This document shows, piece by piece, positions 150 to 59,730 of a stretch of DNA of 64,000 bases. The notes under the pieces are model-generated. The model was not told the origin of the DNA and searched no databases. It saw only the letters and a program-made list of their open reading frames with translations. Both the position numbers and the translations under genes were made by a program. Positions within the stretch are counted from its first letter, which is position 1. The number at the start of each line of letters is the position of its first letter. Source of the DNA: Zygnema cylindricum (lineage: Eukaryota; Streptophyta; Zygnematophyceae; Zygnematales; Zygnemataceae). The DNA lies in contig JBBHKE010001856.1 in NCBI GenBank assembly GCA_037447655.1, forward strand, positions 276,980-340,979, written 5' to 3'.

Positions 150-164
150 CTCCCCTTATTTTCT
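150..164 (-). other. Polypurine tract of array unit 2
   Basis: On the minus strand this reads AGAAAATAAGGGGAG and abuts the TGTTG start of the LTR at 149, the place and composition of a plus-strand primer. The same tract lies at 3340-3354, and a close variant at 13448-13461 precedes the second element's LTR. Confidence 0.85.
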
Positions 165-177
165 AGTCTACTTCCTT

Positions 178-3339: not shown

Positions 3340-3354
3340 CTCCCCTTATTTTCT
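3340..3354 (-). other. Polypurine tract of array unit 1
   Basis: Same tract as at 150-164, directly before the LTR start at 3339 on the minus strand. Confidence 0.85.
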
Positions 3355-3367
3355 AGTCTACTTCCTT

Positions 3368-16034: not shown

Positions 16035-16060
16035 ATTCATGGTGACTGTACTGTACAGTA

Positions 16061-16561
16061 CACCGTCAATCGCTATTAGAGTAAATATCGCTAATTCGGT
16101 GCGCTTTTTATTTTTTTTAAATCTGAAATACAATCCATAAATCTATTTCTTCCTTTACGCCTTTTAGGGTTATTTTTTTAATTAGCGTCAATAACGGAAG
16201 TTCACTGCGATGTTTATAGTTTGATGTACGGACAGGGTTTGTCTGTACCAAAATGTACTTTTTGAAATAAAAATGTACAAAAAGTCATTTAATGTAATTG
16301 CGCACGCATGTGAATGTGCAATGGAAAAAGAGACGCAAACTCGAATATTCAGATTTTGGCGTACGAATTGTCAAATTTTGTACGGGTACATATATTGATG
16401 TAGACATCGATACGGCGGGTATTTATTATTCGAAAAAACCCAAATTAGAGTTAGTGATTAATTAGTATATTTGTTTTTTTTTTTTTTTTCCTAATTAGCG
16501 TTAATAACACTATTTTTTTTTTACGCTATTTATTCCTTTACTCTATTAGCGATTGGCGGTG
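16061..16561. mobile_element. TA-flanked inverted-repeat element (501 bp)
   Basis: Starts CACCGTCAATCGCTATTAG, ends CTATTAGCGATTGGCGGTG, with TA at both borders. The centre is AT-rich and non-coding. It belongs to a family seen at 18298, 29592, 50485, 51975 and 58632. A second copy starts head to tail at 16569 without a clear end. Confidence 0.75.
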
Positions 16562-27783: not shown

Positions 27784-28235
27784 CACGTCAATAAATTTGA
27801 AGTATCGACGACATCTTCACAGAAACTTAACATTGAACATTGATCGCATCGGCACATTCTGACATCGCTAACACTATCAGCAAAAACATTGGCATTTCAT
27901 ATATCGCCAAGTAGTCCAGTTTTTTAATATATCAAAAACATCATGCAAATTGCAAAACGTATTGACACATCGAGCCTCAATAATACGCTAGGATACAACC
28001 TTACCTATACTGTAGTACGAGCGTCCTTACTTTTCAAGTTTTGAACTACGGTATGACAGACGTGAGTGTTCAGCACTTCAGCCGACATAAAGTAATCAGT
28101 GAAGTTAGGCATCGGTTTTCTTCTATCGCATTTCACTCGTGTTTCTGTCGGGTGCCGCTCTCTTTCCTCAGCATTACAATCCCTAGGTTTGCCGGTGTGT
28201 AGGATGATCCTGCCTTCAACTAGCCTTTTGACGTG
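27784..28235 (+). other. Upstream region of the GCFC gene
   Basis: No repeat or coding match. Presumed to contain the promoter and 5' UTR of the gene starting at 28236; no clear TATA box was picked out. Confidence 0.4.
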
Positions 28236-31200
28236 ATGTTTCTAAACAAGAAGAAACCTAAGTTTCGGCGCAGAGTAGAGGACAACGATGACGCAGGCTC
28301 TGAGGAGAAGCCTTCTGCCCCTGTCGCTTCTGCGCAAACAAGCAGTTCAAATGTTTTTAAAACAGAGAAAGGGAAAGAGAAAAAGAAATCGATTTCTGGT
28401 ACAGGTAGGCCTAGCTTGCTGAGTTTTGGAGACGAGGGAGAGGATGGGGAGGATACAACAGCTGTCACACGGAAAAAAGACAGCCATAAACTCTCGGTTG
28501 GCGGTGCCAAAATTCTGAGTTTTGGTGCGGAAGGAGAGGATGAGTGGGAGGATATGAAAGGACCAGCAAAAGGAAAAAAAGGATTCGGGACTGGCCATGG
28601 CCAGGGTCATAAGCTGGGTACAGGAAAAATCTCTCGGGATTCCTCTGTAAAGCCTTCACCTCTACCCTCTGCTTTACAGCCCACGGCAGGAGAGTACACG
28701 AAAGAGAAGCTTGCTGAGCTGGCGGTATGTCTGGTGCTCCACCTTTTTTTCTGTGCTCTCTCTTCCGTTAGTCTTTTATATATCGTCACTTTTAACGACA
28801 GAAATTCATGCATCAGGAAACAGAAGAAATTTGTGGTTTCCGGTATTTTATCAGCTATTTCTTTAAAGACAACTTACCATCCGTTCACTTTCTTCATCAA
28901 AAGTAAGATATTTGCAATATACCGCATTTAACTGGTTACACATATTTTGATATGGTTGTTATTTAATCCTATTTAATTAACCTGATTTTTTTACAAAATG
29001 CAAATTACTGCTCTTGCTACTTTAGGTTATAATTATAGTATATAAATATAATGTCTGTTTTCCTATTTTAAGGTTTATAAGTCTAAAGAATAAAGCAAGC
29101 AGCAGATAAAAAAGAAAAATGTGTTTGATTACAGAAAAGAATTTGCAAGTATTGAAACCAGAAATGAAAAGTTTGATGAAGGCTTGCAAATTTATATGCT
29201 CAAGGTATATAACTATATGGCTTTGGCTCAACTTGTATGCGCAAGCGCTGCATTTATCACTCTGAATTATGCGTCTTTGCCTGTTTTTTCTCCACATTAT
29301 GTTTGCTGAGTTTCTGGGTTTCGTCATTTCTTCTGGTTGTGCACCACTGAGAAAATCTCCTTTTTTAGTCGAACAACGCCTGTTTATTTTTGTAATTCTA
29401 TTCTAGTCGAACATTTACTCAAATCAGCTCCTCGATTAATATCGTCCACTACATTTCTATTGAGACTTTTCTGTTCCCACTCAAGAGTGTTGCATTATAG
29501 TTTTATGTACTTCGTGATTGTGTGTACTTGTTCAGGAAAGAACGTATATTATTTGGGATAATCTTATTGACATCAGTGTGGATTAGCGGTACACTGTAAA
29601 TTGTTGTTAGAGTTAAAACACAACTAGTATGAGGACTTTCGTGTTAGTTGTTCTATTTTCAGCCCAAATGACATGGACTGTTGTGAACCATTTAAAGAAT
29701 TTGCGTTAAGAAAAAACCAATTAGTATTATAACTGCTATTTTCTTTTCGGTGTTATTAACGCAATAGCGTTTCACGGTGTAGTAACAGAATTGTTAGCAA
29801 AGCTCAAACTAATGGTGGTGTGCCATGGTACTGCCGAAGGAAATTGATTGTTCGTTACAAATGCAAGTCCTTCAGACTAACTCTGTTTGTCCACTGAGGT
29901 AGTGTTAGTAACACTAAATTATTTGCCTCTCTAACTCATGTTTGGTACTGAGCCGATTTTCTTAATTCACCTGAAACACCATGAAATAGAGTTAGTCCAG
30001 CATTATGTGGTTTACAGTATCGCTGGTAAACAATGTAGATTATGTGCAGATGTAAAAGACATTTGGGATAGAAAATGACACTACTGGCGGGAGCCACAAG
30101 GATTTTCAATTTTATATTCTCACTGGTAGTTATCAAGTTTGAGGTGGGGAGTTTGTAGCGGTCAAGGTTGTACCATGGATAAAACTCATTTGGATTAAAC
30201 AAAAAACACTTGCTTGCAACAGTTTGACCAACAACTTGTTCAATCTGTAAGTTATTGCCAAAATTCTTTGATTTATGTAAACATACTGTATGTAGACATT
30301 AAAGTGAAGAAATGGCCAGGATTCGCCCGCAGAAGTCCTTCTAAAATGTGCATTTGAAATACACCACTCAATTCAGACATGACGATGCATTTACTGTGTA
30401 TCCCTCTTCTACCATACCATAGAGTGTTTGGTTTCAATCATGATATCGCTTCAAAGACCTGTAGTAATTACCCTGTATTTCTGGCAAGTTTGGAGGCCTG
30501 AGATGTCCTTGATTGTCGACACCTTTTGAATTACGGCAGGTGATGCGACCATTGTGCCAACAATTGTTCATGTGCAATTCAGTGGCCCGGAGAGCCCATA
30601 AATTGATGCATTTCGACCTCCTTGTTGTAAAGGTCTCATGCACGAAGTTAAACTTGTTTCACTTCTGGGCATTCCTAGCTGTTGTATACCTCTATAAAAA
30701 AATGTGGACATGCACTTTGCAGCTTGCATACAGTCGGTGGAACTGCGATTACTTTAACATTTCTAGCAAATATAGATGTAGATATAGAGATAGATATAGA
30801 GATAGATATAGAGATAGATATAGATATAGAACAGATACAGATATAGAGGAAATTAATGTTGCTTAGCTAGGATTCGATGATGGTCAACATTGGACTACGA
30901 TAATATTACATAATCGTACTCTTCCTCAGTCAGGTTTTTGAACTTACGTAATGATTAAATTTTAATTTAAATCTTCAAATTGTAATTGGAAAGTGTCGTT
31001 AAACTTAATGATGAGATTGGTAAGGCCTTTGTGATGTAATCAAATTTATAATGCGTGTTAGGATGTATGGGGTTATTTCAAGTTTGCTAGAAGAGTAAAT
31101 GCAGTGTGAGTACCAAGTGTTGGTGTGGTATTGCATTATGAGTTACCAAGGAGTTCAATAACAATTGCATTCATTGGCAGTACTAAAAAAGGAAATATCT

Positions 31201-34200
31201 CTGAGAAGTACTTGTTCTCCCATCAAGGATGCGAAGATTTTATTTACTCAAATATAGCTAAAAGCTGGCACTTTCGGTTCATTTCTGCCGTTATTTCCTG
31301 GAGGGTATAGTGCATTTTGGACCAAGTTGTACGCAGACGAAAATTGATCTGTTTGCTTTTTTCCTTCTAAAATGTATCTTGTGGCTCCTTCTCATGTCTA
31401 AGCTGTAAAAACTGTTATACTATGAACAATAACACATAAGTTGGAACATAAGTTCTTTTTTTCATACGTTTGTTCTTCTGAACCGGAGCTGTGTTGGGAA
31501 GTGTCTTAGGGCCTTTCCATTGTCATTTTTCTTAATTGTTGAGCCATTTTTCTTTCTAATGATTTTTTCACAGCATGGTTATAAACTAATAGTTTCTAGT
31601 GATGTAAATCGTACCCCATTCGCCTTGATGCTTTGCGGCCTACAATGTGTACAGTGGAAAGTTCTTAATCTTTTCCCACTCTGATATCCATTGTAACATA
31701 TGCGATATTGCGATGTTACATAACTGTTATGGGTCATTGGTGACAAGAATCATGCTGCCTGTACCAAGGATAAGGAGGTGGTGACCAACTGCCCGAATAT
31801 GACAATAGTGTATCGTGCTTAAATTTGTTTGTAAAATCATTTGTTTCCTGTTTTTGCTCTTTGATTTGCCACTCTGATGTTGCTTTTATTCTGGCCCACC
31901 CTTTTCTTGCAGAAGAACACTCGAACACTTGGAGGACCCAAAAAGCAACCCCCTCCACCTTCAAAAACTTCAGAAAGCAACGCCGAGCCAGTCATAGTAT
32001 TGAAAGGGCTTTTGAAGCCCCCCAATACTGTCCCTTCAAATACTGCGCAGGGTTCAGCACAGGGCCAGTATTTAGGAGTGAGGAGTTCTTTGTCCGCCCA
32101 GCCGGACTTACAGTCAGAGATGGAAAACCGATTAGGGTTGATGGGCATTGGGAGAGGGGCCGAGGGAGGAGGGATTACTCATATTCCCGATGCAGCAGCC
32201 ATAGCTGCGGCAAAAGCAAAGAGGGAGAGGTTAAGACAGGCACAAACTGCACCTGATTACATTCCAATTGCTGGATCGGGGGAATTGGGTCGACCTGATA
32301 GGAGTCGGTATCGGGAATCAGGGCTCGTGAGAGAGCAGGAAGATGATTTGGAGGCGAAGGAAGGTGGGGGAGTTTCCAGTGGTGAGGACGATGATGCAAC
32401 TCGAATGGTGTTTTTAGGTGAAGCTGGGAAAGCAAAGAAGAGGGGGGAGCGGGGAGGTCGCAGAGTTGCAAAAGATGTGGGTGCTGAGGGAGGCGGCGTC
32501 AGAGAAAAGAGAGGGAGTGGAGTAGAGGAAGGTGGAGTTATGCCTGAAGTTGACGAGGGGGACGCCGGTGCTTCTTTAAGTGAAGCAGCTCGTGTCTTGG
32601 ATGAAGAAGACGAAGAGGCTTTACGATGGGAAGAAGAGCAACTTCGAAAAGGTGTTGGAAAGAGAGTAGAAGAGGTAGCACCGGCATCTGGGAAAGGGCC
32701 CTTAGGTGTTAGACCTGCTGGAGTTACTGCAGTGGGGAGAGTGGGAGATTTTAGGGGGGCAGGGGAAGGAGGGTGGGGACTTGGAGTAAGGATTCAGGGA
32801 GAGACTGCGGCCCAGCAGGGGCAGGCCGTGATGAAGTCTCTCAGAGATGGACTTCTCCGACTGAGGGTATGTGATTTGTCTGCTTTTAATCTGTTTAATG
32901 GAGAGAAAATATTGGTGACATTCAGTTTATGATAGATAACACTCAGTTTTTGAGTGTGCTAGAGATACCGGAAGACTTCGTGTGTTTGTGCCCATTTTTT
33001 TCCTATGAGAAATAGATTGCTCTGTCTAGGCACATGTTCTTTTCTAATTTGTACCCAAGGTTCAGCCGACAGAACAATGCCCTTAGGAATGGGAGGTGAA
33101 ACAGGTTTTCGATTCATTCATATGTGTTTGTCTGAAGGAGTTCTTAAATTGACAGAAAGAATCAAATTTTCCAGGAAGCTCATCTGAAGAGTCAGAAGGA
33201 TGTGGAGAGGGCGGAGGGCAGTCTGGTGCAAGCAGCCGAAAATGTTATCGTTTTGGAAGGCGCCCAGGCAGAGGTTGGGGCGAAATACCGATTCGTGCAG
33301 GAGCTCCGGGACTATGTAGCCACATTGTGCGACTTCCTCCGGGTATGCAAATAGTTTTTTGAGGGCGAGGGAGAGGGAGGAGTAGGTGTGAGAGGGGAGA
33401 GTGGCAGCTCTTCTTCGTCTCTATTTCCTCTCCCTCACCGTCATGCTTTTTCTCCTACAAAGCGGGAGAAGGAAAGGATGAAAGTGAGGGTGAGGGGGAG
33501 AGAGGGCAGTGAGTGAGGGAGAGAGACAGAGAGGGAAAGGGAGAGGGAGAGTGTTCTTGGCAGCATGTTGTGAGCTTTGGCTATTTACATGGTTGGGTGT
33601 TACCAGGGAAAGGCACCACTCTCCAAACATGTGATTATTTATCTTATTTTTAGCTGTCCGTTTCTTTGAATTATTTTTATACAAACTGTCAAGCTGCCCT
33701 TTGCGTGGTTTGTTATCTATCAAAATGCAGGATAAAGCGCCGTTGATTGAAGAACTGGAGGAAGAGATGGAGAAAGTGCATGAAGACAGAGCCCAGGCAC
33801 TCTCGGAGCGCCGGGCGGCCGATTACGCGGATGAAATGGCGGAGGCTGAGGCAGCCATGGCCGCCGCTCTGGCAGCCATGGGGCGGGGAGCAGGCACAGC
33901 CACAGCGGAACGGGCAGCCATGGCCGCAGCAGAGGCTGTGAGGGAAGGAACTGGAATGGCTCCTCAACTGGATGAGTTTGGAAGGGATATTAATATGCAG
34001 AAAAGGTGAATGGAATGGCCTCCTGGCTCGAGTTCATAGGTTTGATTGTGGCTGTTCTAACGGATGCAGGCATGGCTCTAGTCTTTTCTCATTAACTGGC
34101 ATGGAACCTTCAGTAGAAAATCACAGGCGCTGAGTTTGGTGAAGTACATATTTTCTCATTCGGATATGGGCAGTTTTGGTCTTTCGTGTCCATTGTCTCA

Positions 34201-36299
34201 TTAGGTTTTAGGTTTGAGGAAAATTATGTCATTTATAGTAGAGCATTAAATGTGCATTTCTCCAGTTTTTGTAGATGATGATGTCAATTTTGGCCATTCT
34301 CTTAGCTTGATGCATTGAGTATTGTTTTTTTTTGTTTTTCAGAATGGATGCAAAACGACGAGCTGAAGCGAGGGAGCGTCGGAAAGCCCGGACTGGAGCT
34401 CGCCGAGCAGGAAGAACAACTGGAGGACATGGTGGGCCATCAAATGGAGCTCCGTCATTGATGGAAGGAGAGTCAAGCAGTGATGAAAGTGAGAGTGAAC
34501 AGACAGCTTATACTTCAGCAAGACAAGAGGTGCTCGCGGTTGCAGGTATGGTGCCTGTATTGCTTTAGGTGGGTGTTGTTGGTCTTCCTCTCTTTGTCGT
34601 GGAACGTAGTGTGAGGCTTGGTTTTCCAAGGCTCTCAAATAATGTTGTTTGTGTTAGATGGTACTTTGCTTGTACTTGGCTAGGTTCAGCAAGATGTTGG
34701 ACTTTTAAGACACCTTTGCGGCAAACTGAGATTAGAGTTGATGTTCGTCTCCGGCAGTCTACAGGTAGGGACATCCCAATGAAATTAGTTGAGGCTGATT
34801 GGCCCTGAAAAACAGAAGTGGTGTGCTAGATAATTTTTGGGCCACCGTGTGTTTCAGTTACAACAACTTGCTGCATTTGTCTCCATGTTACCATCTTGTC
34901 AGTGAGTGAGAGTATAACTCCAAAAATTCAACTAATCCAAAAGGACTCTCAGCTATATATATTTAGAAGATAAAGGTCTGCCGGAAACTGTTGTGGTCTG
35001 TAGCAACAGGGGCTTCTTTTGGTTTCAGAATTGACAAATAAGTAAGATTAGCAATAAAACCTAGCCACATTTGTGACATGTATCACTTTTTAAAATCAAG
35101 TTGAAGTTGCTGGGCATGCTGTGTGAAGGCTGATGTATATATATTAAATGCGACTTAAGGCCACAGAAAATGATGCTCGAATTTGCAAATGCTTCAGTGC
35201 AACATAAATTTTAAGAGGAAACAGGTCAACAATGCTGATTTGGTGTAAGAGTTTCACAGCGCCATCCTCATTGCCCATTTTTTTTCCGTCTTGGGTTTTA
35301 GATGCTTGGAAATACCGGCTTGGAAGCATGCCAGGCCTTTTGGTGCCACCATCAAAGGTCGCCATCCGTTTCGGTGGAACTCTGGTAGACATCATGTATT
35401 TTTCTTGTCCTATGATGTCTGTAAAGTTTTTTACATAGTCTCTTGTATGACTTTTACCCTGTCACCTTGCTGGTTCCAGATGGTGTTTTTGGCGACGCAG
35501 CTGAAGAATTTTCGAAGTTGGCAATTGTGAAGTCCAAGTTCGAAACATGGAAAACGAGATACCCTGCGTCCTATCGAGACGCATATTGTTCCCTATCAGC
35601 TCCAACTCTCTTTGCGCCTTATGTTCGTTTGGAACTTCTCCGATGGGATCCCCTGTATGGAAGTGTAGGCTTTGAGTCGATGAATTGGTAAGTTGTGACT
35701 CATGATCAGATGAAGAATCTTTTTCACGAAACAGAGCATAAGCTGGTCTGTGGTTCAAGGGCTTTGTAGAGCTAACTTCTGTGGATACTGTTTCATGAAA
35801 GTGATAATGAAGGGCATTCAGCTGAAAAAGATGGTCAATAAGCCTGACCAAAAACCAAAATCGTTTGAATTTGTCTTTCCTCAAACCAAACGAACAAACA
35901 AAACATAATTGACATTCTTTCTCAAATTTATAATGTTAAGCTTCATCCCGTTCACACAGACAATGCATTCTCAAACTATTCAGTTTCTTGTCAATGCTGG
36001 AACGGCACAACAGGTACAACACACTGTTCGATTATGGCATGCCGGACGACAGTGTTGGAGAAGCGCCACCTGGTGATCCCGACGCCAACCTTGTCCCCCG
36101 TTTAGTGGAGAAGGTAGCGCTTCCGATGCTAAGGGAGAGACTCTCCCGCTGCTGGGACCCGGCCAGTCTGGCAGCCTCGGCCCGGGCGGCAGCCGCACTG
36201 CAGGAGATGCTGGTCTATGTGCCGCTGGAAAGCGAGACGCTGCAGGAGCTCCTCACTGACGTCAAGTCGCGTCTGGCAGATGCTGTAGCAAAGTCGCAG
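28236..36299 (+). CDS. ILP1: GCFC-domain protein, ILP1/PAXBP1 type (C-terminus missing)
   Basis: Nuclear protein of the GC-rich-sequence-binding-factor family; plant ILP1 is tied to spliceosome disassembly and endoreduplication control. Seven exons join in frame: 28236-28724, 31913-32866, 33175-33342, 33731-34005, 34343-34545, 35480-35687, 36014-36299, giving 861 residues. The start MFLNKKKPKFRRR fits the family's basic N-terminus. Then come an acidic low-complexity region, VIVLKGLLKPP, AKAKRERLRQAQTAPDYIPI, WEEEQLRKGVGKR, a coiled-coil/Ala-rich stretch, LDEFGRDINMQKR, EGESSSDESESEQTAY, and the GCFC core YRDAYCSLSAPTLFAPYVRL with LRWDPLYG, LFDYGMPDD and DANLVPRLVEKVALPML. The last exon ends at a GTGAGA donor, and the final ~80-90 residues seen in relatives (around the W-D-P motif) are not found downstream. 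Intron 1 is 3.2 kb and holds an inverted-repeat element and a microsatellite. Confidence 0.93.
29592..29779. mobile_element. TA-family inverted-repeat element (188 bp) in GCFC intron 1
   Basis: Starts CACTGTAAATTGTTGTTAG and ends CAATAGCGTTTCACGGTG, flanked by TA on both sides; same family as 16061-16561. Confidence 0.65.
30776..30843. repeat. GATA/TAGA-type microsatellite
   Basis: AGATATAGAGATAG-type repeats inside GCFC intron 1. Confidence 0.9.
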
Positions 36300-36903
36300 G
36301 TGAGAGAGGGAAGCAAAGCCGGGGGTGAGAGGGGGGAACTAAGTCGCAGGTGAGAGGCGGCTCTCGCTTTTCCTCTCTCCCTTTCTTCTATACATGTACA
36401 TATGTGTATGTTTATCAGCTTTTTTTATACGTTTCTTTACGTTCCATTTCTTGCAGCATTCTTAACTCTTTTTATTTTCGCCCTTACTATTTGCTCCTTA
36501 TTTGTAATCCGTTTTTTTGCTCATTTGTCACTCTTTTCTTCACTGTATCACAAATATTTTCATACACATGGTTAAACCCTTTCCGTTCTGGTTCCTGTTT
36601 TTGTTCTGGGTTTCCAATGTTTTCTTTAATTCATATTATTTTTCCTATTTTCACATTTTTGGGCAGCGAATTTAAAAGAAATCTTAGCGATTTCATGTTT
36701 GGTGTGGATTTTTTTCTTTTGAAGCTCGAAATGTATTTTGTGATACACGTGTCTTCTTTTTTTTTATCATATTTTCTTATTTGGTTCCTCTATAACGGCA
36801 GTTTTTTATCGTTTTTTAGTGCTCTTAAACATTTCTTACGCCTTTTTTAGTGTTCATTTTCATTTCTAATTCTGATACTTCCTTTTTCTCGAATTTTACG
36901 CAG
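36300..36903 (+). other. T-rich interval between two gene fragments
   Basis: Begins with the GCFC exon 7 donor. A 15-bp copy of that donor region (AAGTCGCAGGTGAGA) recurs at 36341-36355. The remainder is pyrimidine-rich like an intron and ends in the acceptor TTTTACGCAG of the Lifeguard exon. Neither the GCFC C-terminus nor upstream Lifeguard exons are visible. Confidence 0.6.
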
Positions 36904-40131: not shown

Positions 40132-42048
40132 ACATTTCTGTAATCGTGCGGCCAACTCTACAGTCCGGTTGATTGAGTCGATGTTCCATCACGTAGAGTA
40201 TGTAAGCCACGTGTTATAATTTTACTGGCGCCAAGCAAGCTACGTTTTGATAGTGAATATCTTTCCGATTTTTTAGCACCGACAAATTTAACTTCAAATC
40301 TCCACTTGCGTACCATGTACGTATGAACTTTTATACTTTTTGCAGACGCCAATCTGTACGCCAGCTCATTTTTTAGGATTTCTGTTTTCGAACATAACGA
40401 AAGTCCTTTGAGAAAAATAGTGTGGTGAACAAAAGTTACTGAAAATAGCGTGACAAAGGAATGTTACGAAATTTCCTTTTTATTTTCGGTTGTATTGTGG
40501 AAAGAGCGTGTCATGTGCAAATCTTAAGATTTTTCGTTGGTGTTACATCATGACACGTAGCTTAATTGTCCAGCGTGTCACGCGTTTTTTTTTATGTATT
40601 AGCCAACCCACCTCCTCGAGGTGGGTTGACAATTACAGAGAAAAATGAAGCGAACGCCTCGCAGATGAACATCCGACGGTCAGTACCACCTCCCAACCCT
40701 TTGGAGAGTATTGGCAAGATTCTCTGTAATGTTGTTTTTCATATAAAAACAAAATAAGCGGTACGGTTTGATACGGATAGTCGCTGATTTTTGTAAACTA
40801 CGCCACTTTTCGTCTGATGGAATGTCACCTTAAGTTAAAAGCTAACATAAGCTCGCAGAGTGGAGCTCGCTTAAAGTGAAAAACGAAAAAAAAATGATAG
40901 TCTGCAACACTTTTATTTACATTTTACATGTGGCTGCCGCAGTTTTGTTAGCGTAAACCTTCGTCGGCCGTGTGAATTATTGATTTTATTATGCGCGGCA
41001 AAAGTTTAACCGGTTTCTACTACATTTTGAAAGTCTAAGCAGTTCAATTGATTGACCGTCAAATCTAAAGTCAACGGTACTTAATTGTACCAGCGTGTAC
41101 CTAAAATGTACAATCTTTGACAAAGTGACGTAAGTGACCGTGCGCAACCAAAATAGTCACTACCATGATCAATTCCCTAATTATTATTTTACGTTTGAAC
41201 AATGAACTTTTGGCGACGTGTATTTATTTATTTAAGGTATTTGAACTTCTCGTCATATTGGTTACATAAAGTACAATCCAGAAGCTTTCTACTGGCGGAG
41301 CGCATATTGAACTAACGGTAAGCTGACTTGTAATTTCGAACTATTAAATTTGGTCACAAAACAATATTAAAAAGGTCTTAATTTATCTGGATATTATCAT
41401 ATTATGGTATTCAGTTAGCCCATATTATACGAGTAGTATTTGATACAGTATAAATATAATACGACTTAACAACACATATAGTTACCAATTGCTTTCTCAC
41501 ATTTGATTTGCGATTTGTTCAGCTCCACATGCAATGGTCTGACACGTGGAATAGTTTTGAGGTGAAACTAGGCCCATACAATATGCATATTGTATGTATA
41601 ACATTCAATATGACCTTAAGACCCATATTGTATTGGTCGCAAAATGAAAAAAAAATAGTAACAGGGTTGAGTTGCACATCGATCGATAGAGAATTAAACG
41701 TCATGTCTAAATTTTGAAAAACATTCGGACAAAAAAAAAATTATGTGAGTTTTGAGGTTTTTTTTATTTAAACCGTCAGATTTAGACGATCGGATGGTCG
41801 TTGATCAAATTAGCAATCTAAGACGATCACATGAAAAGCCCGTAACACAACTCATCCTACGCGTGTCAGTTTGCAAAAAAAAATCGTCCGGCGGCGTGCG
41901 TTGTACTATGATCATACGTCATATTCGTACGTTCGTACAAGAGTGTGCTCAAATGCACACACATACAGTATGCCTACTCTACGCGAGTTTTGTGCCAAGT
42001 CTTGTGCGCCTACCAAAGGCTTACCATAAAAACGCCTACTTTTGAACT
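40132..42048. other. Intergenic, no supported gene
   Basis: AT-rich with scattered GTAC motifs. The short frames at 41508-41717 and 41752-42045 have no recognisable family. Confidence 0.5.
40604..40628. repeat. Short perfect hairpin
   Basis: 11-bp arms CAACCCACCTC and GAGGTGGGTTG with a 3-nt loop. Confidence 0.75.
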
Positions 42049-42369
42049 ATGGTTTTGACGGGGAAAACGCATTCTATGGACTTTGGGAAAAGGTGTTTCC
42101 AGTACCGTAGTGGTATTCGACATTGGGGGGAGGGTCTATTTGGCGGGCTGCTGAGACCTTTGAGGAGGGTTTTGCCCGGGCATTGTAAATCCCTCGTAGT
42201 AATTGATAACGACATAAATTATCGCGCGAAGCGTGGAGATTTTTTTTTTAGGAGTCTCCGCGGTGATTTGGTCAGATTATGTAAAAAGAAATTGAGAAAC
42301 GAAGTGTTCACACTTAAAGCGTTCCTATCTATAGCATTCGTTACAAATTTTTTCACGCGCGTCTCATGA
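42049..42369 (+). CDS. Hypothetical small open frame, 106 residues
   Basis: I do not recognise this as a gene. The frame is GC-richer than its surroundings. Its middle, YRSGIRHWGEGLFGGLLRP, vaguely recalls the glycine-rich amphipathic start of small membrane-active proteins found in polinton-like elements. That is one short resemblance; no capsid, polymerase or integrase frame lies nearby. It may be chance. Confidence 0.15.
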   Translation: MVLTGKTHSMDFGKRCFQYRSGIRHWGEGLFGGLLRPLRRVLPGHCKSLVVIDNDINYRAKRGDFFFRSLRGDLVRLCKKKLRNEVFTLKAFLSIAFVTNFFTRVS

Positions 42370-43635
42370 GAACATGTAAATCGACTTCGTGTCTCGAAAA
42401 TATCTATAATATTTTATAAGTGTTCACACCTTAAGTGCTACCAAATAATCCGTCGATAAAGATTGAACAGGTTGAGCCGCGCGTCACATGAGAACATTTA
42501 ATGTATGACATAAAAAACAAAAGAGTCAAAGTACAGTCGTATTGTCGTTTGGCGCCGCAGGCGATTTTTTTCGTATGCTACTCGAAATGAGGAGCATATG
42601 CGGAGAGTTGAAAAAATATTCTACGGTCATCATTGAACTAGTACTTTGAAAGGAAGAGAAGTTATTTTGAAAGCGGAGAAGTTATCTACATTCAAGTTTT
42701 CAAAAGTACAATGCGAATCCGCGTGTAAGATTCACTGACTCCCAAATGTAACTTTACTAGTCGAATTTCGTACGCTTTAATGTTACATTATGTCCTTTTC
42801 AAGGTAGATTAACTCTCCGCGCGGATTTTCGTACGTTGTTATGTTGAATTCCGTACTCTTCAATGTAGATTAGCTCTCCGCGAAATTCCGTACGCTCGAA
42901 TGTAAACCAACGCTCTTTCAGTATGTATCGTGAATTATTACGTTTCAAATTGTTACGCTTTAATATAAACTAATCTCTTTTAGTATGTATCAAAAATAAT
43001 TACGTTTCAATTTGTTTTTAAACGTACGTAAACATGGACTTACATTAATTTAACTTTTAGGTACACTTTAACGATTGGTTTTGACTACCGTTTTAACGTA
43101 TTTGGTTTTGAAACCTACAGTTAAATCCTACAGCCTACAACTTATAACCTACAACTAATTTGTTTTTTGTTCTAATATTATTATTTTTTTGTCTTTTTAT
43201 TTATTTTAATTTGTTACTATCTTCTTGATCAGTTTGGTCATTTTTATTTTATTTTTACTTCTTTATCTTATTTCTATTTATTATTATACTCTTTCTTTCC
43301 TTTTTTTTCTATTTTTTCACTTTATCTTCTTCTTTTAATCATACATCCTTTTTTTTCTTTTTTTCTTTTCTTTTTCGTTTTGTGTTTCCGTTTTTTTTTT
43401 CTTTTTTTTCCCATCGTATACTTTTTCCTTCCTTCACCCGTTTTTCTTTTAACATTTTTTCTTTTGAATTACATCTTTTAGAGGATTTTCTTATTATTAT
43501 TATTATTATTATTATTTTCTTTGTCTTTATAATTTTTTCTTGGCGTAAACGAATTTTCCAAATTATACCTAGTATTGTATCAAGGCTCACATTTGGAAAC
43601 TGTCAGAAGGTAGTTCACTTAGATGATGATGATAG
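42370..43635. other. T-rich intergenic DNA before the Crypton
   Basis: 42500-43020 has repeated CGTACG/TTTCAATTTG-type pieces. 43150-43540 is almost pure pyrimidine with a TTA microsatellite near 43490-43516. The upstream end of the Crypton must lie in or before this stretch but has no terminal repeat to mark it. Confidence 0.5.
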
Positions 43636-43713
43636 CAATGTAGGAATAAAAATCCCACCACCAATGTAGGAATAAAAATCCCACCACCAATGTAGGAATA
43701 AAAATCCCACCAC
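43636..43713 (+). repeat. Three perfect 26-bp tandem repeats in the recombinase start
   Basis: Units begin at 43636, 43662 and 43688. With a single unit the frame runs from NVGIKIPPP into YSESERQRII; two extra units add 52 bp and break the frame. Confidence 0.9.
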
Positions 43714-46700
43714 CGTATAGCGAATCAGAAAGACAACGTATTATTAGAGACACTTTAAAACGACGTAATCCGAACACTGCATCAGCCTATAGAAACGGTT
43801 TAAATCAGTATGAAAATTTTTGGAGTGGACAAGGACACCCAAATGTAGCTATTACACCTGATGGGGTTATTGGACTATTAGAGAATAACAAAGATAAGAG
43901 CTAGAACACACTCGTACAATGGGTGAAAGGACTCCAAGACGAATATAAAACTCAGTTAGTTATAAAAAAAGGGGGGGGTGAAAACCTTAGAGGAAACAAT
44001 ATCATTCAAAAACTTTTACAAGAATAAAAAAAAAATACTTCAAATTTTAAAAAGAATAACCATGAAGATCGCCAAGAAGGTATAAGAGAAGCGTATTCTC
44101 TCGAAAATTACAAAGGATTTTCAACATTTTGGTTAGAGTTGGCCGAAGGAAAGCACAAGGAAAAAAAATTGGGGATGGAGCCATACACCTATGTTCAAGT
44201 GAGGTATGTATTCATAAAATACTAAATTTTGTATTTTCTTTTAATCGATTTATGTTTGTTTCTCACTTTAAGTTGTCTTTTATCGTGTGCCTTTCTTTTC
44301 AATTTTTGATTATTCTTATTTTTTTTACGATAGGGTTTCATTTTTTTGCTTTCTCTTTGGTTTTTTTTTATTTTATTTAAATTATCTATTTTTTTTGTAT
44401 TCATTTCTTTTTACTTTTTTGTGGTTTTTTTATAAATTTTCATGGTTTTTTAAAGCTTTCTAGGGTTTTTTTAAGTTTTTAAAGTTAATTCAAAAAAATG
44501 TTTAAAACGTAGAAATCATATTGTCATTTTTTTATTTTTTTAATGTTTTGTTTATGTTTTTTTTGTAGGAGTCAATTTATCATGAATCATGCATGTCTCA
44601 GTCGCGGCGATGATTTCAAAAATGCTCAATTAGCAGATGTTTTCTCATATGATCTTCCTTATCTTGGGCCGGACAAAGGTCTTGTTCTGGCGATGGTTAC
44701 AAGAAATGGGAAAACTAATACAGTAAGTTATCTATAAAACTACAATTTTTTTCTCTTCTCCTCTCCTTCTCCCCCTCCTTTTCCATCTCCCTCTCCCTCT
44801 CCCTCTTTCATAAAATTGTGTTTTGTTACTTTGTTTTTTAATCATAACTGGATAAAAAAATACTATTATTTTTTTTAATATTTTTTATGGTATTTTTTAT
44901 CCGCAGAATGGCCGTGCATAATTTATCGGATGCATGCACCATTTGGATTTTCTTATTTGCCCTGTAGGTGCTATGGCCCAACAATTTTTTTGGAGGTGGG
45001 AGCTAGCAACCAATAAAAACACAATTCCAAAGTTTTCGTCGAAAGAAGCTTAGTGCAGTGAACCCTTTACAGAAGGAAGAGTTTTAGCCAAAGATAGAGA
45101 AGGAAAAGAAACAACTTTTATGCAACCTCTTTGCTATAATCGCAGTTCCAATACATAAAAAAACATTCAAAGTCAAAAACATTTCGTTATCCCACAAAAC
45201 GCATGCCGGTCGTGGACAAGGAGCAACGATGTTGGCGACGGGGGGGTAGGTTTTTTTTTAAATTCATCACTTGTTTTTAATTATGAATTTATTTGATATA
45301 GTCTATTTTTATTGTCTGTGTTTTATAATATTTTTTTCTAAAGTTATATTTTGAAATTTTTTTGTGGTGTGTTTTATAATAATTTTTTCCAGAGTTATAT
45401 TTTGACTTTTTTTGTGGTAAATGTTTCAGTGTTGATCGAAAAGCCATCAAAGTGATGGGACGTTGGACATCCGACAATTTTTCCTATTCTTATGTTAATG
45501 ATTTACCAACCGACATTTTACTTCAAGCTTCCGGCCACCAAAACAATTCAAGGAAATATTTCTTACCTCGTTCGAGAGTGGAACCCCCTTCTACTTTTTG
45601 TGCCATGTTTTGGCCGTGGGTCGAAACGGCATATGCAGAGCTTCCTGTGGTATGTTTTAAATAACATTCACCATTTATATCTTTATTTTGTTATGATGAG
45701 TAATTTTGGTCTTTTATGTTTTATCACTGTTTCTCTATATTATTTTATATTTTTTATTGTATATTCAATAACATATTAGTTCGATTCATTTTTGAATTTA
45801 GTGTGATTTCTTTTTTCTAACTAGCTTGTATATTTATTCTGTGAATTTTGAGTTTTTTTAATTTACTTTTTTTCTTTTCTATCATTTATTTTCTGATATC
45901 TTTCTTATTTTTTTATTGTTTTTTCCGTTATTATTTTATATTTTATTATAGTTTTCTTATTTATTTTGGGATTTTGTTTTGTTTTTTTGTTATTTACATG
46001 TTGTTTCTCATTATACTCCGTTTTTTTTTTTTGGTTGACTTTGTGATTTTTGTTTTGTTTTTGATGTATTTTATGTTGTTATAATTTTACGTTTTCTTTT
46101 TTTTTTCTGTTTGTTTTCTAACTAGTCGTTAATTTTTATAGCTTTTCAATTTTCTTTTTATTATCATTGTTTTTTTTCTATTTCCATCTCACTTTTTTTT
46201 TCTAACTTTTTTTTTCTTTCGTGTTTTAATACTCAAGTGATTTTTATTAAACAAATACAAATGTATTTTTTTTGCAGAAAAATGCTCGAGCTTCCAAATC
46301 TTAAAGAGATTTAAGCGCTCGGAATTTTTTGCAAACTATGTTATGGTTTAAAAAAGTTTTTTTACAGGACCATGTTTATTTCCAAGATCAATTTCCTAAT
46401 ATTGTTATCTTTACTCATAAATTGTTCTTATCTCTTTTGTAGTCGACATTTAAAGACAAGGTGAAAAATACATGTATAGAAGCAACGGATATGTGGGCTT
46501 CAATTGTTGATGCTGAAGCAAATGTTCTTATTACTATCTCACAAGTTGGCAAATCAGTTGACTCTTTGTTGATATGGAGTCAAACATGTGGGAGAAATAC
46601 TGACATTATGGGAGAAGAAATATGTAGCATGAAAGAGACATTATCCTATGTGAAAGAGAAGATGGAAAATATGGATAAAAAATTTGATCATATTATTAGG

Positions 46701-46799
46701 AAAATGGACTGTCACGGAGAGTCGTTTCAGGAAGGACAACCTTCTCGAACTCCACATACTCCATATAGACCATCAGAAAGTGAATCAGAATTAGATTAG
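43637..46799 (+). pseudogene. Crypton-type (Ndc10-like) tyrosine recombinase, broken
   Basis: Segments separated by T-rich introns: 43637-44203, 44569-44721, 44907-45245, 45430-45649, 46278-~46420, 46443-46799. Segment 1 resembles the SAM-like N-terminus (AYRNGLNQYENFW). Segment 2 has the first catalytic-region arginine in LSRGDD and then VMVTRNGKTNT-like sequence. Segment 3 carries CPVGAMAQQFFWRWEL and KTHAGRGQGA, the H-x-x-R active-site motif. Segment 4 has MGRWTSDNFSYSYVNDLP, expected to include the nucleophilic tyrosine, then FLPRSRVEPP and FWPWVE. Segment 5 has FLQTMLWFKKVFLQD. The last exon is coiled-coil. This order is that of fungal CryptonF/Ndc10 recombinases, which excise and integrate circular DNA by strand exchange. 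In-frame stops at 43902, 44919, 45051 and 46302, a likely one-base shift near 44167 and a repeat expansion at 43636 indicate it is dead. A 44.76-44.81 kb intron contains CTCTCC repeats. Confidence 0.85.
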
Positions 46800-47240
46800 A
46801 CAGATAATTAGATTAGAGGGATAATTAGATTAGAGAGATAATTAGATTAGCCAGTTAATTAGACTAGGCAGATAAAGAAAGTATACAGTTAATTAGATTA
46901 GAGAGATAATTAGATAAGCCACATAATTAGATTAGACAGATAATTATATTAGACAGGTAATTAGATTAGCGAGATAATTAGATTAGGCAGATAATTAGAT
47001 TAGAGAGATACTCAAATTATGGAGATAGTTAGATTAGAGAGATAATTAGATTCGAAAGATAATTAGATTAGCCAGATAATTAGATTAAGTAGATAATGAA
47101 ATTAGACAGATAATTAGATTAGACAGGTAATTAGATTAGCGAGATAATTAGATTAGGTAGATAATGAAATTAGACAGATAATTATATTAGACAGATAAGA
47201 CAAATAATTTGATAAATAATTAGATAGATAGATAGACAGA
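46797..47240. repeat. Minisatellite of ~16-bp AGATAATTAGATTAG units
   Basis: More than twenty imperfect units directly after the stop codon of the recombinase pseudogene, passing into GATA repeats at 47217-47250. Confidence 0.92.
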
Positions 47241-48834
47241 TAGATAGATACTTAAAGTACAGTCATAATTGAAAGCACGGTTATAATTTAAAGTACACTT
47301 ATGATTTAAAGTGTTGTTATAATTAAAAATATGGTTATAATGCAAAGTATAAAAAATAGGAAACAGAAACAAAGCAAAAAAACTGTTTTTTTTTTTGTTT
47401 TGAATCATAGATTGGGCTTTGTTATAAAAAGGGTAAAAGGAAAAAAATGGTTTTTAAATGGATTTACGGAAATCAAAACTGAATCAGCAACTGAAACTGA
47501 AAACGGAATAGTAACTTAAAATATAATATTCAACTGAAAACTGAAATTAAACTGAAAAATTGCGAAATTGTGTAAAAAAAAATGTGTAAATTTGAAATCT
47601 CACCTTTTTTGAAAACTCAAAAGGAAGCGGGAATTCGAAAATGTTATCGCTGAAATATTCTACGAAATAGTTGTGAAAAATGATGCAGGTTATTGAATGT
47701 ACGGATTTCTCTTACAAAAGAAACCAAAAGGAAAGACGGCTTTTGTATTATCGTTGTTTTGCAGGCATGACCTTTCTATGGTTAATAAATTGGCCACGTG
47801 TAATTGTGGTCGTCCAATAATATGTCCTGTTACGTCGATTGGTTAAGATATCTTCAAATTGCGACCCATTTAAAGTTAAACTTAACTATAATACATGTTC
47901 ATTCTCCAACTTTGTCGTCTGAAAGCAACTTTATTAGAGGTAAGATACCTTATTAAAGTAAATTTACCCTAATATAGCCACCAAAGTGCAAGGGTATTAA
48001 AGTTCAAAAGCACCTTTTTTCGTACGAAAATCACACAACGTAACAGAAAGTTTCGTTTACATTCGAATTTAAGCGTAATTCATTTGTTCATAAATGTTGA
48101 TTTTCAATTATGTAACTGCGCATAATCTACATGTAACCTTCGACGGTGGTCCCGACGTAACTGACATTCAGCGCGACAATAGTACTAACGTCATAATGAT
48201 GTCAAAATATACGGACTGATAGTTTTTGTACATATACATAATTTAGTGTTCCTAATTACAGCGTAGATTATTATTGCCGACATAACCCAATATAGAATAC
48301 TTAAATAAATTAGAGTAAACTTCATAGATAAAAAAGCTCTATCACATAAATTAGCGTTCATTACTCTAATTTTTTGTTTTGTTTTTTTACTCTAATTTTT
48401 TCATTACTCTAATTACGATTCGCGGTGTATAGATTCAAAATCGTACAACACATTTTAAATAATTTTTCAGATCGTTAAATGCGAAACGCACGTATTATTC
48501 GCGCGTTTGTTATGTTCATACGATTCGATTTGAACAACTATGCATTTTACGTACTTTTAAGATTGTTAGGGTACATTTTTCGTTTATTTTCGTACATTCT
48601 AGTAGATTTTTTTGTACATTTTAAGACTTTTTTAGATTTTTTTAAGGTTAAGGGCATAGTTGTTAAAATCGGATCGTACAAACGATACAAACGCAAAAAT
48701 AATACGTGCGTTTCACATTTAACGATTGATTTTTTTTTTAAATGCGCTGTACGGTTTTGCATCCGTACTACTCCGTACATTTGTCAAATTTGAATGACTC
48801 GTGTGCCGCAATTTTTACCTTTTCCATTAAATGA
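47241..48834. other. Intergenic, no supported gene
   Basis: Contains the right end of another CACCG-family element (CTCTAATTACGATTCGCGGTG ending 48427, left end not located) and a GTAC-rich stretch from 48480. No coding region recognised. Confidence 0.5.
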
Positions 48835-52325: not shown

Positions 52326-53194
52326 AATACATATGATGTATGGCATGCCAGAAAGTGTGCCGGTATTTTCAAAACATATGTATGCATATGTAGATCTTAA
52401 GTTGTAGATGTAAATGTACATCATTAACATAATTCAAAGTAATACTGTATTCCAACTAATATTATTGTAAACATAAATATAAAAAAATAACATATATAAA
52501 AATAATAGTGCAAATGCCGTAAAAATTTAGATCCGAATGTTCATGTTTTACTAAAACCATCGATATAATTCCAACTGACTGAAATTGTAACTTGGTTGTA
52601 ATAATAACAAAGCCGAAAGGTTTTAAAAATCCCCACCATAAAAAAAAACCCCAAACCGCCTATCGTGGACATAAAAATAAAAAAAGAAACCAAATCCAAA
52701 ATGAACATTAAAAAATACACAAAACTATACCCATCTAACCCAAGAAAACCAGCTTCACAACAACTCAAAATCCTACCTTAAAACTTCGTTCTTTCCCACA
52801 ATATTTCGCGACCCACTCCGGCGTCTCCTCTCCCACCCACCTCCCCCCGGGTGACATTACCCCTTTTGTACCCCTTTGCCTCCCTCTCCCTTCCCCCCTT
52901 TCCATTGCCATATCCAAATAATAGCATCCACAATGAGGAGATTCCCCCCACTCTAAAGTTATACTTTTTTGATCCGCGGAGGCTAACATAGGAGGGAGAG
53001 GTTGAGGCACTCTCAACCCTCTCTCTCCACCCCTCTCTCCACCCCTCTCTCCTCCCCTCTCTCCTCCCCTCTCTCCTCCCCTCTCTCCTCCCCTCTCTCG
53101 ACCTCAGCGTCCTCTACCCCGTCCTCTCCCTCTCCCCCACAAACACAGGCCTCCCTCTCTCCCCTCCTCTCCCTCCTCTCTCTCTCTCCCCCCC
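52326..53194. other. Upstream region of the PPR gene
   Basis: AT-rich to ~52750, then strongly pyrimidine-rich with CCCTCTCTCCTC repeats at 53015-53190 that run up to the start codon. Promoter expected here; no element picked out with confidence. Confidence 0.5.
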
Positions 53195-56100
53195 ATGCTC
53201 CGCCCCCACAATCGGCCAATCACAGAGCGAGAACTTTCCCTTCTCGTTTCCTCCATCCTCTCCCTCGACGACCCCCCTTCCCCTCTCTCCTCCCCCAAAT
53301 CCACACTAAATCTCCTCCTCACCCAGAAAACGACAAAATTGTCTCAAAAATCTCTCTCTGTCGTTATCCGAAAACTCGGTCAAAAGGGAAAAATCGAAAA
53401 ATGTTTCGAATTATATCATTGGATGACCCAAAAACCCCAATTTTGTCCGGATAGCGATATTTTTGGAGCTCTCCTTCACGCCTCTCTCCAAAATTCTCGA
53501 TTCCCATTGGTCGAAAAATTGCACCGGAAGGCGGTGGAGCGACAGCTGTCGCTCTCTCCGAGAACGCTGGAAACCCTAATTTTGGCGTATACCCAAATGG
53601 GGAATTATGATAAGGCGTTAGGGGTTTTGAGAGAGAGGAGGCAGGGATGGGAGAGAGGGAGAGAGAGAGGAGGTGGAGGTGGTGGTGGGGGAGGAGGGGG
53701 AGGGGGAGAGAGAGGAGAGAGGGAGAGAGGAGAGAGGGAGAGAGAGGAGAGGGAGGCGTGGCTATACATAAGTTTAATTGAAGCTTGTAGTAAAAGGGGA
53801 AAAAAGAGACTGGTGAAGCTTCTTTTGGAAGAAATGAGGGTTTTTTTGAGTTATTTGGGAGAAATTAGGGGGGAGGAGGATAGAATATTATTGAAGAAGG
53901 AGGTAAAGATGGAGGAGATGGAGGTGTTGGAGGTGGGATTTGGAGAAGAAAAAGAATTAATGCATTTTGGAGAGTTGGGGTTAGAGAGAGATAAAAAAAG
54001 AAAAGGTTTCTTGAGAAGAGATATGTACGGACGACTAATCGCAGCTTGTAGTAAAGTTGGATTATTGAAGGAATTTAATACGTTTGTAAATAGTATTAAA
54101 AATGGAAAACCCATAATTTTAGAACCGGAATCGGTGGATAAGGCTGGAGGGGGAACAGAGAGTGTTGAGGAGAGAGAGGAAATTGTTAATTTTGCGAGTG
54201 TCGAGGAGAGAGAGGCGATTCTTAATTTGGTGAATTGGACGGCTCTTATTAGTGCTTATGTGAGGGATGGGAGAATTGGAGAGGCTTCCTTCGAGTGTTG
54301 GAAAATGCAAACCGCCGGTTTGAAATTGGATCTTGTCGCGTTTCGAGTCATGATGGATGTTTTTGTAAAGGTGAGTGAGATTTGCGACATTATTTTTGAA
54401 CATTGTTTTTGATCTCTGTTTTTTAACATTGTTTTTAAACATTTTTTTGGAACGTTGTTTTTGAACAGTTTTTTAACAACTTTCATTACTATATTATTTT
54501 AGTTTTGAGGTTTTGGGTGTTTTTTGTCAAGGTGAGTGAGATTGCAACATTTTTTTGACATTGTTTTTGAACAACTTTCACTGCTATATTATTTTATTTT
54601 TGGGATTTTGGGTGTTTTTGTAAAGGTGAGTGAGAATGCAACATTTTTTTCGAAAAATGGCTTTTTAGTACTTTGATGTTTTTTTTCTTGGGTTTCGGGT
54701 TTTGCTTCTTGAGTATTATCAAATATTACATTCGTTGGCTTCGGGAAGGAAAGGGAGGGGCATTTCAATTTTGAGAGAGCTCATACTTTGGAAGTGCAAG
54801 CCCTTCCCATTTTTACTCTTTTAAATTCGATGGGATACCCCTTCGGAGGTTTTGCTTTTATGAGGCTTTCCTATCCAGGCTCTAAAAAAGTTGATACCAA
54901 CCTTTAAACATATTCTGTTCTACAATAGAACTTGCAGATATTTGGGTTAAACGTTGTCAAACACAGAAAAAGTGTATAATATATGTATACTTATGCATAT
55001 AGGTATAAGTATATGTACATATATATGTATATATACATAGTACACATGCATATATTACTTATAGATGATGATCAGTACATGCTGTCAAACAAAAAAAACC
55101 TATAAATATCATATGTATACTTTTTCATAAAACTATATACAAAACTATGATGATCAGTTACATCTACTCCAAAATCCGTAGACCTCAGACCCCTTGACTG
55201 AAAACTAAAACGATAGAAATGGATAGAGAAAGACTAAACTTGTGGTTCCGGTTTCAAATGCAGGCAAAAGATGTCATTAAAGTTGTAAATCTTATGAAGC
55301 AAATGCGCCAATCGGGTCAAGCTCCAACTCTTTTGGAATACAACTCTCTTGTTGGACTTTATTGCATCACGGGTTCTCCCGAGAAGGCGAGAAATATTTT
55401 GAAAGAAATGCAAATGTTTGGAATAGCTCCAAATGTCGACACTTATAACCATATTTTACAATCATTTAATGATACCGGACAGTCGACATCGGCCCTCCAA
55501 GTCGAAATGACAATGAGAAGCGCCGGGATTTCGGCCAATCTTAAGACATATTGTATCAAAATAGCTATTTATTTGCAATTAAAAGATTGGGAAAGTTTAG
55601 AAAAATTGTTGAAAAGAATGCAAGACACGGGGACGGCTCTTCCTGAAAAAGAAGCCAAGGCAATTGTGGATGAGTACACTAAAAGAGGAAAAAAAGACGA
55701 GGTTTGGGAGTTGTTACGGAGTATGAAGATATCCGGAGGAGGCCGTGAGGGCTCTCTCTTTTTTTCTCTACAAGTCGAATTAGTTAAGAAGGAGAAACAA
55801 CAAAAAATTATTAAGTGGTGCTCTCATTTTGAAGTCTTATGCGAGGAGGGAAGAGTGGAGGAGGCGAGAGAAGCCCTTAGGGCAATCCACGACTCCGAGA
55901 AAACGCTTCCTAGTGAAAATTATAATGTCATTTTACAAACTTGTAAGCGCCTTGGTCATGCGAAGCTTAGTCTTTTTATCGGTGAGATGATGAGAAAAAG
56001 AAGGCAAAAACTATCCGCGGAAATGTATTGGATGTTAGTAGAAAGTTATTTGGAGACGGGAGATCTAATTGGGGCTCAAGGCGAGGTTATAGCTTTGTCC

Positions 56101-56295
56101 GGTCATGGATTCCCAATACCACAAGAATTAGCGTGGCGATTGGTTGAAGTCCACGAGAAATTCGGAAGGAACAATAATTTTTTTTTTCGACAATTACAAG
56201 ATGTGAAAGTGTGTGGGACGACTTTTGGACTCATGCCTTTTCAAGAATGGTTACAGAACGAGATGTCCCACGACTACGGAGATTCACAAACTTAA
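53195..56295 (+). CDS. Pentatricopeptide-repeat (PPR) protein
   Basis: Two exons, 53195-54370 and 55264-56295, join in frame at a GTGAGT donor and ATGCAG acceptor to give 735 residues. PPR proteins are helical-repeat RNA-binding proteins that act on chloroplast or mitochondrial transcripts. P-type motifs are clear: LETLILAYTQMGNYDKALGV, YISLIEACSKRGKKRLVKLL, WTALISAYVRDGRIGEASFE, EYNSLVGLYCITGSPEKA, TYNHILQSFNDTGQSTSALQ and NYNVILQTCKRLGHA. No C-terminal DYW, E or SMR domain. The start is the first ATG after a CT-rich leader; the Ser/Pro/Leu-rich N-terminus could serve in organelle import. Between two motifs near residues 150-190, polypurine expansion encodes a Gly run and RERGERERE-type sequence, probably an extruded loop. 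The donor region is repeated twice more within the intron. Confidence 0.93.
54358..54640 (+). repeat. Exon end and splice donor repeated three times in the PPR intron
   Basis: TTTTTGTAAAGGTGAGTGAGA at the true exon end is copied with few changes near 54520-54540 and 54615-54635, each followed by GCAACATTTTTT-like sequence. Only the first donor keeps the protein frame without stops. Confidence 0.8.
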
Positions 56296-58631: not shown

Positions 58632-58694
58632 CATTGTGAATCACTATTAGAGTAAAAAAAATAAATTACTAATAATTATTAATTAATTTAGTAA

Positions 58695-59690
58695 AATTAT
58701 TGGCCGTAGGACATATCCGATTGATATTGTACTACTCGATGGTGCATATTGCATTATATTATATTATAATGTTTATTATAAATTTATAAACGTAATTAAG
58801 GATTTTATACTTAAAACTAGCGGAATAAATGAAAACTTTAACTGAATAAGGAATATAATCACCTAATATTATGATATGTACCATTAATATTAGCAACAAA
58901 ACAGGAATTTGAAGTAAATAATGAGATTTGGTGACATTGTTTTTGGTGAAGTCTGTCTCGAATCCAATTCAGATAATATAATAAACATAATATTAAATAA
59001 TAACATAATATTAAATAATAAACTTAAATTATTGGCCGTAGGACATATCCGATTGATATTGTACTACTCGATGGTGCATATTGCATTATATTATATTATA
59101 ATGTTTATTATAAATTTATAAACGTAATTAAGGATTTTATACTTAAAACTAGCGGAATAAATGAAAACTTTAACTGAATAAGGAATATAATCACCTAATA
59201 TTATGATATGTACCATTAATATTAGCAACAAAACAGGAATTTGAAGTAAATAATGAGATTTGGTGACATTGTTTTTGGTGAAGTCTGTCTCGAATCCAAT
59301 TCAGATAATATAATAAACATAATATTAAATAATAACATAATATTAAATAATAAACTTAAATTGTTGGCCGTAGGACATATCCGATTGATATTGTACTACT
59401 CGATGGTGCATATTGCATTATATTATATTATAATGTTTATTATAAATTTATAAACGTAATTAAGGATTTTATACTTAAAACTAGCGGAATAAATGAAAAC
59501 TTTAACTGAATAAGGAATATAATCACCTAATATTATGATATGTACCATTAATATTAGCAACAAAACAGGAATTTGAAGTAAATAATGAGATTTGGTGACA
59601 TTGTTTTTGGTGAAGTCTGTCTCGAATCCAATTCATATAATATAATAAACATAATATTAAATAATAACATAATATTAAATAATAAACTTA
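58695..59690. repeat. Three 332-bp tandem repeats
   Basis: Units start at 58695, 59027 and 59359 and are nearly identical (one change in the first bases of unit 3, one in the last part). Each has a 66-codon open frame that starts MRFGDIVFGEV and whose end crosses the unit boundary; no family match, probably not a gene. Confidence 0.95.
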
Positions 59691-59730
59691 ATATTAAATA
59701 ATAACATGATATTGAACAATTAACATAATA

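Follow-up and report, generated by a model that had tools for sequence, protein, structure and literature searches.

The stretch of DNA analysed here (the window, 64,000 nucleotides) carries at positions 42103-46788 of the + strand what is very probably a decayed copy, truncated on its 3' side, of a multi-copy CryptonF-type family that likely moves by recombination at TACC or TACC(G). The extent of this copy was determined by alignment with other copies from the host genome, which were followed either from the left terminus (L017, L009 and L010) or from inside the element (L014 and L012). The left terminus, TACCGTAGTGGTATTCGACATTGGGGGGAGG, is intact at 42103-42133 (+), where it was recognised by a 31-base pattern matched genome-wide. 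At the other side, likeness to the other copies ends at 46786-46788, exactly at the start of a 17-bp minisatellite of 24.1 units (46789-47198) that stands in place of the 3' part of the element. Thus, the copy lacks its 3' part and reaches 1.5 kb further left than the initial annotation had it, which placed the start at 43637 instead of 42103.

Five exons of a recombinase gene were recognised on the + strand of the window copy. A remnant of exon 1, encoding the SAM-like N-terminal part, was located at 43538-44204 by tblastn, with the intact exon 1 as query; by eye its start codon is lost, and it contains two stops and a perfect 26-bp unit present three times (43636-43714), which shifts the frame. 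Exon 2 (44570-44719; 94% to its intact counterpart) encodes the first catalytic Arg within LSRGDD. Exon 3 (44907-45246), which includes CPVG and the HxxR box THAGRG, has two stops and a frame change. Exon 4 (45434-45649; 86% to its intact counterpart) comprises GRW, the likely nucleophile Tyr and WPWVE, and the 5' part of exon 5, encoding C-terminal helices, extends from 46278 to 46787 with two stops and 62% likeness to the first part of the intact exon. Decay of the window copy thus amounts to six in-frame stops in the matched exons, the frame change in exon 3 and the 26-bp triplication. All motifs quoted in the initial annotation were recovered on the + strand in the order given there, namely the SAM-like start, LSRGDD, GKTNT, CPVGAMAQQFFWRWEL, THAGRG, GRW, a Tyr-rich run, WPWVE and FLQTMLWFKKVFLQD, and they fall within exon-like segments bounded by GT-AG.

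When joined in sequence, with X replacing each stop and marking the frame change, the pieces matched the Pfam profile NDC10_II (PF16787) with E = 3.3e-30, covering 29-310 of its 317 positions, so that the observation is far from chance. The joined pieces used in this and in a protein search omit about 45 bases near 46400-46440; an additional intron considered at this position was dropped, as the related protein P0001 aligns straight through. Tested singly, two of the six pieces matched NDC10_II (45431-45661 at 4.5e-6 and 44922-45050 at 0.006) and piece 43650-43901 weakly matched a phage-integrase SAM-like domain (E 0.0025), while pieces 44570-44722, 45172-45249 and 46443-46796 matched no recombinase family in Pfam. 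The window copy is 82.5% identical to its nearest relative copy and, judged by this divergence, represents an older branch of the family. An imperfect inverted repeat lies 3' of the element at 48432-48763 (69% over 343 aligned bases).

In the host assembly (352.8 Mb), where the window occupies positions 276980-340979 of contig C1393, 60 exon matches to NDC10_II were found, compared to none in 14 control genomes. The 31-base left-end pattern matched 72 times with up to 2 mismatches and a 33-base right-end pattern 79 times with up to 3 mismatches, each against 0 for the reversed control. Exon 3 gave 103 matches; many of these cover a single exon piecemeal, and merging by eye left about 69 places. 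The genome match counts for ends and exons are minimum values or numbers of fragments. Of eight loci displayed, seven share the sharp left terminus TACCGTAGTGGTATT, in some cases with a changed base, and the eighth, L019, starts later than this terminus. The flanks ahead of it differ among loci, except for L022 and L024, which lie in the same repeat. Concordantly, the right terminus GCAGTATACC or a close form of it is reached in eleven loci, beyond which the flanks differ.

Left and right ends on the same strand and less than 20 kb apart formed 26 pairs, two of which use a right end that also belongs to another pair. Six are 3.4-4.2 kb long, 15 measure 6.4-8.0 kb and five are longer, up to 17 kb; 24 of the 26 are under 10 kb and the remaining two measure 14.7 and 17.0 kb. 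The 3.4-4.2 kb elements with both termini, located on contigs C2092, C944, C1728, C493, C1427 and C2566, are probably non-autonomous short derivatives. Across exons 2-4 (about 960 bases), the two closest copies agree at 99.6%, which points to a recent spread of the family. At the other extreme, L020 (C623) is a far more distant relative, 29-51% identical to the intact copies depending on the exon, and therefore at least two lineages are present in the host genome. Two further features were observed in the 3' region of the elements. Tandem repeats of about 330-360 bp, roughly 70-80% alike, lie near the 3' end (L009 6283-7336 and other copies), and a small element beginning with CACCGCCAATCGCTATTA is inserted at TA in the 3' part of the Crypton in L009 (from 7554), L027 and L024. 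In L024 the inverse of its start was seen at its other end, and it is likely a nested DNA transposon.

The family includes recombinase genes that are still open. Among 20 loci fetched from the host genome for comparison, two, L009 (C312) and L017 (C647), have all five exons open; the remaining 18 show stops, gaps or missing exons, in some cases since the stretch or the copy is cut. With four GT-AG introns each, the predicted spliced products comprise 773 aa (L009) and 758 aa (L017). Both matched NDC10_II (3.2e-41 and 1.2e-38, respectively) and GCR1_C (1.1e-9 and 2.2e-9). The GCR1_C part forms the end of exon 5 in the intact copies and is missing from the window copy; of the two profiles named in the initial annotation, both were matched in the intact copies and only NDC10_II in the window copy. 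In the intact copies no other recombinase family passed the cut-off. The classification as a Crypton/Ndc10-like tyrosine recombinase in the initial annotation is upheld. Its suspicion of a relic applies to the broken and truncated window copy, but not to the family, with its two open genes, near-identical copies and clean termini.

The catalytic set of a tyrosine recombinase, R in LSRGDD, HxxR in THAGRG and W and Y in GRW...SYSY, is present in L009 and L017. Furthermore, CLSRGDD, KTHAGRG and GRWTSDHFSYSY occur together in L009, L016, L017, L018, L021 and one L023 copy. A Tyr of exon 4 is the likely attacking nucleophile. Between L009 and L017, dN/dS was 0.13 for exons 1-4 and 0.20 for the whole gene, at dS of 0.25 and 0.33, respectively; judged by these low ratios, selection has maintained the recombinase protein.

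A recombination footprint was found at the ends of the elements. Of the 23 elements with both ends read, 14 had TACC on either side, 17 had it at the left end and 19 at the right end, where the left counts are inflated because the left-end pattern itself started with TACC and allowed 2 mismatches, and the right counts are unaffected. Nine of the 23 deviate from TACC at one or both ends. The base following the right-hand TACC position is G in 19 of the 23. Moreover, head-to-tail junctions were detected on contigs C944, C2533 and C265, where a right end directly abuts a left end and the two have one TACC in common.

Unoccupied sites point in the same direction. Joining the flanks of the C1427 element around one TACC yielded a 34-mer with 879 genome matches at up to 3 mismatches compared to 0 for the reversed control, and 80 of the 100 matches listed are exact. 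A variant copy of this dispersed repeat with an unoccupied target TACCG, which is occupied in C1427 and C1728, lies in the window itself at 41075-41079 (-). For the C186 site, an unoccupied relative on C1393 contains one TACC, next to a gap of 5 bases. For the C406 and C967 sites, the relatives carry TACT and TGCC, each one base off TACC, a repeat at 16040-16340 of the window that is related to the C647 site has no TACC at the junction, and comparisons of the C30 and C715 sites were uninformative. Taken together, TACC repeats, junctions with one TACC and empty sites constitute the footprint of a tyrosine recombinase.

The right flank starts with the same repeat in 7 of the 23 elements, and several left flanks consist of this repeat as well. 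Among the 100 matches listed, inspection by eye gave 19 places with two sites less than 8 kb apart, the + match invariably preceding the - match. This pairing is as expected for inverted ends, and the site would lie in the inverted ends of another abundant DNA transposon. The element seems to prefer TACC(G) inside this abundant repeat, and the preference may extend specifically to its inverted ends.

From what is known of the family we infer the following course of transposition. The recombinase gene would be transcribed and spliced across its four introns, and the protein is predicted to bind the element ends, likely via GCR1_C and the SAM-like part, and would then pair the two TACC copies. 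Strand exchange by the exon-4 tyrosine would release a circle with one TACC, a putative intermediate that may subsequently integrate at a target TACC(G), leaving TACC on both sides.

Protein searches returned six relatives only (P0001-P0006), one of them a named fungal protein; one of these searches scored only the 7995 candidates with the most words in common, a selection apparently dominated by words of low complexity. The nearest full-length relative, P0001 (782 aa, source code lgn, read as Logan), also combines NDC10_II and GCR1_C and is 37% identical to an intact copy over 736 positions and 35% to the window pieces; the lineage is thus far from the relatives found, in line with the undescribed lineage considered in the initial annotation. 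By its sequence, P0001 is changed at three catalytic positions of the intact copies, namely both Arg (the first one and that of HxxR) and the Tyr. P0006 (250 aa, lgn) corresponds to the N-terminal part only, with 42-45% identity over its matched part (42% to an intact copy over 211 positions), but it ends ahead of the recombinase domain and has no NDC10_II match. The named protein, Hypma_003308 (P0005) of the basidiomycete Hypsizygus marmoreus, likewise carries NDC10_II and GCR1_C, but is 28% identical to an intact copy over 328 positions. In a tree of 8 rows, which has long branches and one named fungal protein, the window copy and the two intact copies grouped together and then with P0001 (100/100). 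No relative was found in phages (DNA search) or plasmids (P0001 as query), and none of 76 pattern matches in virus contigs was confirmed. PDB sequence searches detected no Ndc10 relative with P0001, and no match, including no Ndc10 relative, with an intact copy at E up to 1. The AlphaFold2 model of P0001 had a mean pLDDT of 49.

We file the element as CryptonF-type, in a new lineage and host group. CryptonF elements have been described from fungi and oomycetes as encoding a tyrosine recombinase followed by GCR1_C between short terminal direct repeats (Kojima and Jurka 2011, PMC3212892). The host family shares with them the NDC10_II recombinase, followed by GCR1_C, the short terminal direct repeats and the single repeat copy in unoccupied sites. 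In contrast to the 6-bp terminal direct repeat reported there for most fungal and five oomycete CryptonF elements (PMC3212892), the repeat of the host family is 4-5 bp, TACC(G). The host family further differs in its likely streptophyte host, its four introns, its favoured site in another repeat and the tandemly repeated units (about 330-360 bp) close to its 3' end.

The assignment of the host rests on its light-harvesting genes. Counted by exon, the chlorophyll a/b-binding family gave 88 genome matches. For one host protein, the best single-domain PDB matches were a chlorophyll a-b binding protein and a protein 3 of this name (421.8 and 420.8 bits), chains which we take to be Lhcb3 of land plants; the next single-domain group followed at 378 bits. 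Summed over two domains, the score of an unnamed polyprotein (9vfj) was higher, but each domain scored lower (273 bits). A second protein was closest to CP24/Lhcb6 (320 bits), ahead of a polyprotein (204 bits) and the next single chain (120 bits). Since Lhcb3 and CP24 mark streptophytes, the host is likely a streptophyte, in line with the plant-like genome assumed in the initial annotation. The PPR, Copia gag and GCFC pieces in the window fit such a host.

We consider a source of the elements in fungal or oomycete DNA contaminating the assembly very unlikely, even if CryptonF is in print a group of these organisms. Element pieces and light-harvesting matches occur on the same contigs (C1116, C152 and C1602), element ends are spread over dozens of contigs, several elements are inserted in the repeat with 879 further sites, and the nearest full-length relative is only 35-37% identical. 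The initial annotation had reached the same conclusion from repeats shared with the rest of the window; this argument is weak for the element itself, as no repeat common to the element and the rest of the window was detected (blastn, E 1e-3), but the conclusion holds on the genome-wide evidence. It is about as improbable that the element belongs to the DIRS/Ngaro retrotransposons or the Starship-type giant elements, which have a tyrosine recombinase in common with Cryptons. The five ORFs of at least 110 aa in L017 comprise three with recombinase exons, one of low complexity and one unrecognised of 119 aa near the right end, and by eye none of them is reverse-transcriptase-like. Starships are defined by a DUF3435-type captain and large cargo; the intact copies had no Pfam match to such a captain up to E 0.1, and neither the profile matches, confined to one recombinase family, nor the span of 24 of the 26 pairs (under 10 kb) agree with either class.

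That the copies represent a host gene family of Ndc10- or Gcr1-like type, domesticated and multiplied by ordinary duplication, has precedents in yeast Cbf2/Ndc10 and Gcr1, described as CryptonF-derived, domesticated proteins that lost the catalytic site (PMC3212892). These two proteins gave their names to the two Pfam domains, and P0001 carries by sequence the changes at catalytic positions mentioned above. This reading is nevertheless highly improbable, since left termini occur at 72 and right termini at 79 places and the family has empty sites, head-to-tail junctions and shorter forms with the same ends. Somewhat less remote, yet still unlikely, is a passive spread, in which most copies would be passengers inside the repeat with the favoured site and few would be true insertions. 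The repeat shared by 7 of 23 right flanks and several left flanks is consistent with it, but 16 of the 23 right flanks begin otherwise, elements at the shared site range from 3.6 to 9.3 kb in length, and the low dN/dS between two copies would not be expected. It is possible, and we propose it tentatively, that the family represents a still-active, long-resident plant-lineage clade of CryptonF, separate from the fungal ones, that lands on TACC(G) in the inverted ends of the abundant transposon. If true, one mobile element lives safely inside another.

Cryptons are known mainly from fungi, water moulds, diatoms and animals. Table 1 of PMC3212892 lists them from fungi, animals and stramenopiles and no plant, and a Chlamydomonas code is confined to a tree legend, the tree also including other tyrosine recombinases. 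A review states that no Crypton has been described in Arabidopsis thaliana (PMC7385966), and automated tables list Crypton counts in plant sets (PMC8729191, PMC10722297). Apart from such automated counts, no described plant Crypton was found in searches of open-access literature. With its termini, empty sites and open genes, the present family of a likely streptophyte would extend CryptonF to plants and make its age or transfer history testable. It would also make available a defined system for recombination at TACC that stems from the plant lineage, and the core of strand exchange could be read from its numerous naturally formed insertions and junctions.

Further observations concern the host genome and the remainder of the window. 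Contigs C519 and C2590 carry dense clusters of chlorophyll a/b-binding matches, about 3 kb apart and on both strands. In the window, positions 28224-36350 include pieces of a GCFC/NTR2-type gene, presumably resembling plant ILP1, with Pfam matches for 31865-32929 and 35940-36350 and no Pfam match for 28224-28928 and 33635-34006. Pieces of a PPR-repeat gene lie at 53006-56292 (+), with Pfam matches up to 4.7e-18. A 332-bp unit in about three copies (98% match) at 58672-59696 is satellite-like. Positions 1-3339 and 3191-6529 form a 3.3-kb direct repeat of 99.85% identity that contains a Copia-type gag ORF twice, representing either a tandem duplication of very recent date or an effect of the assembly.
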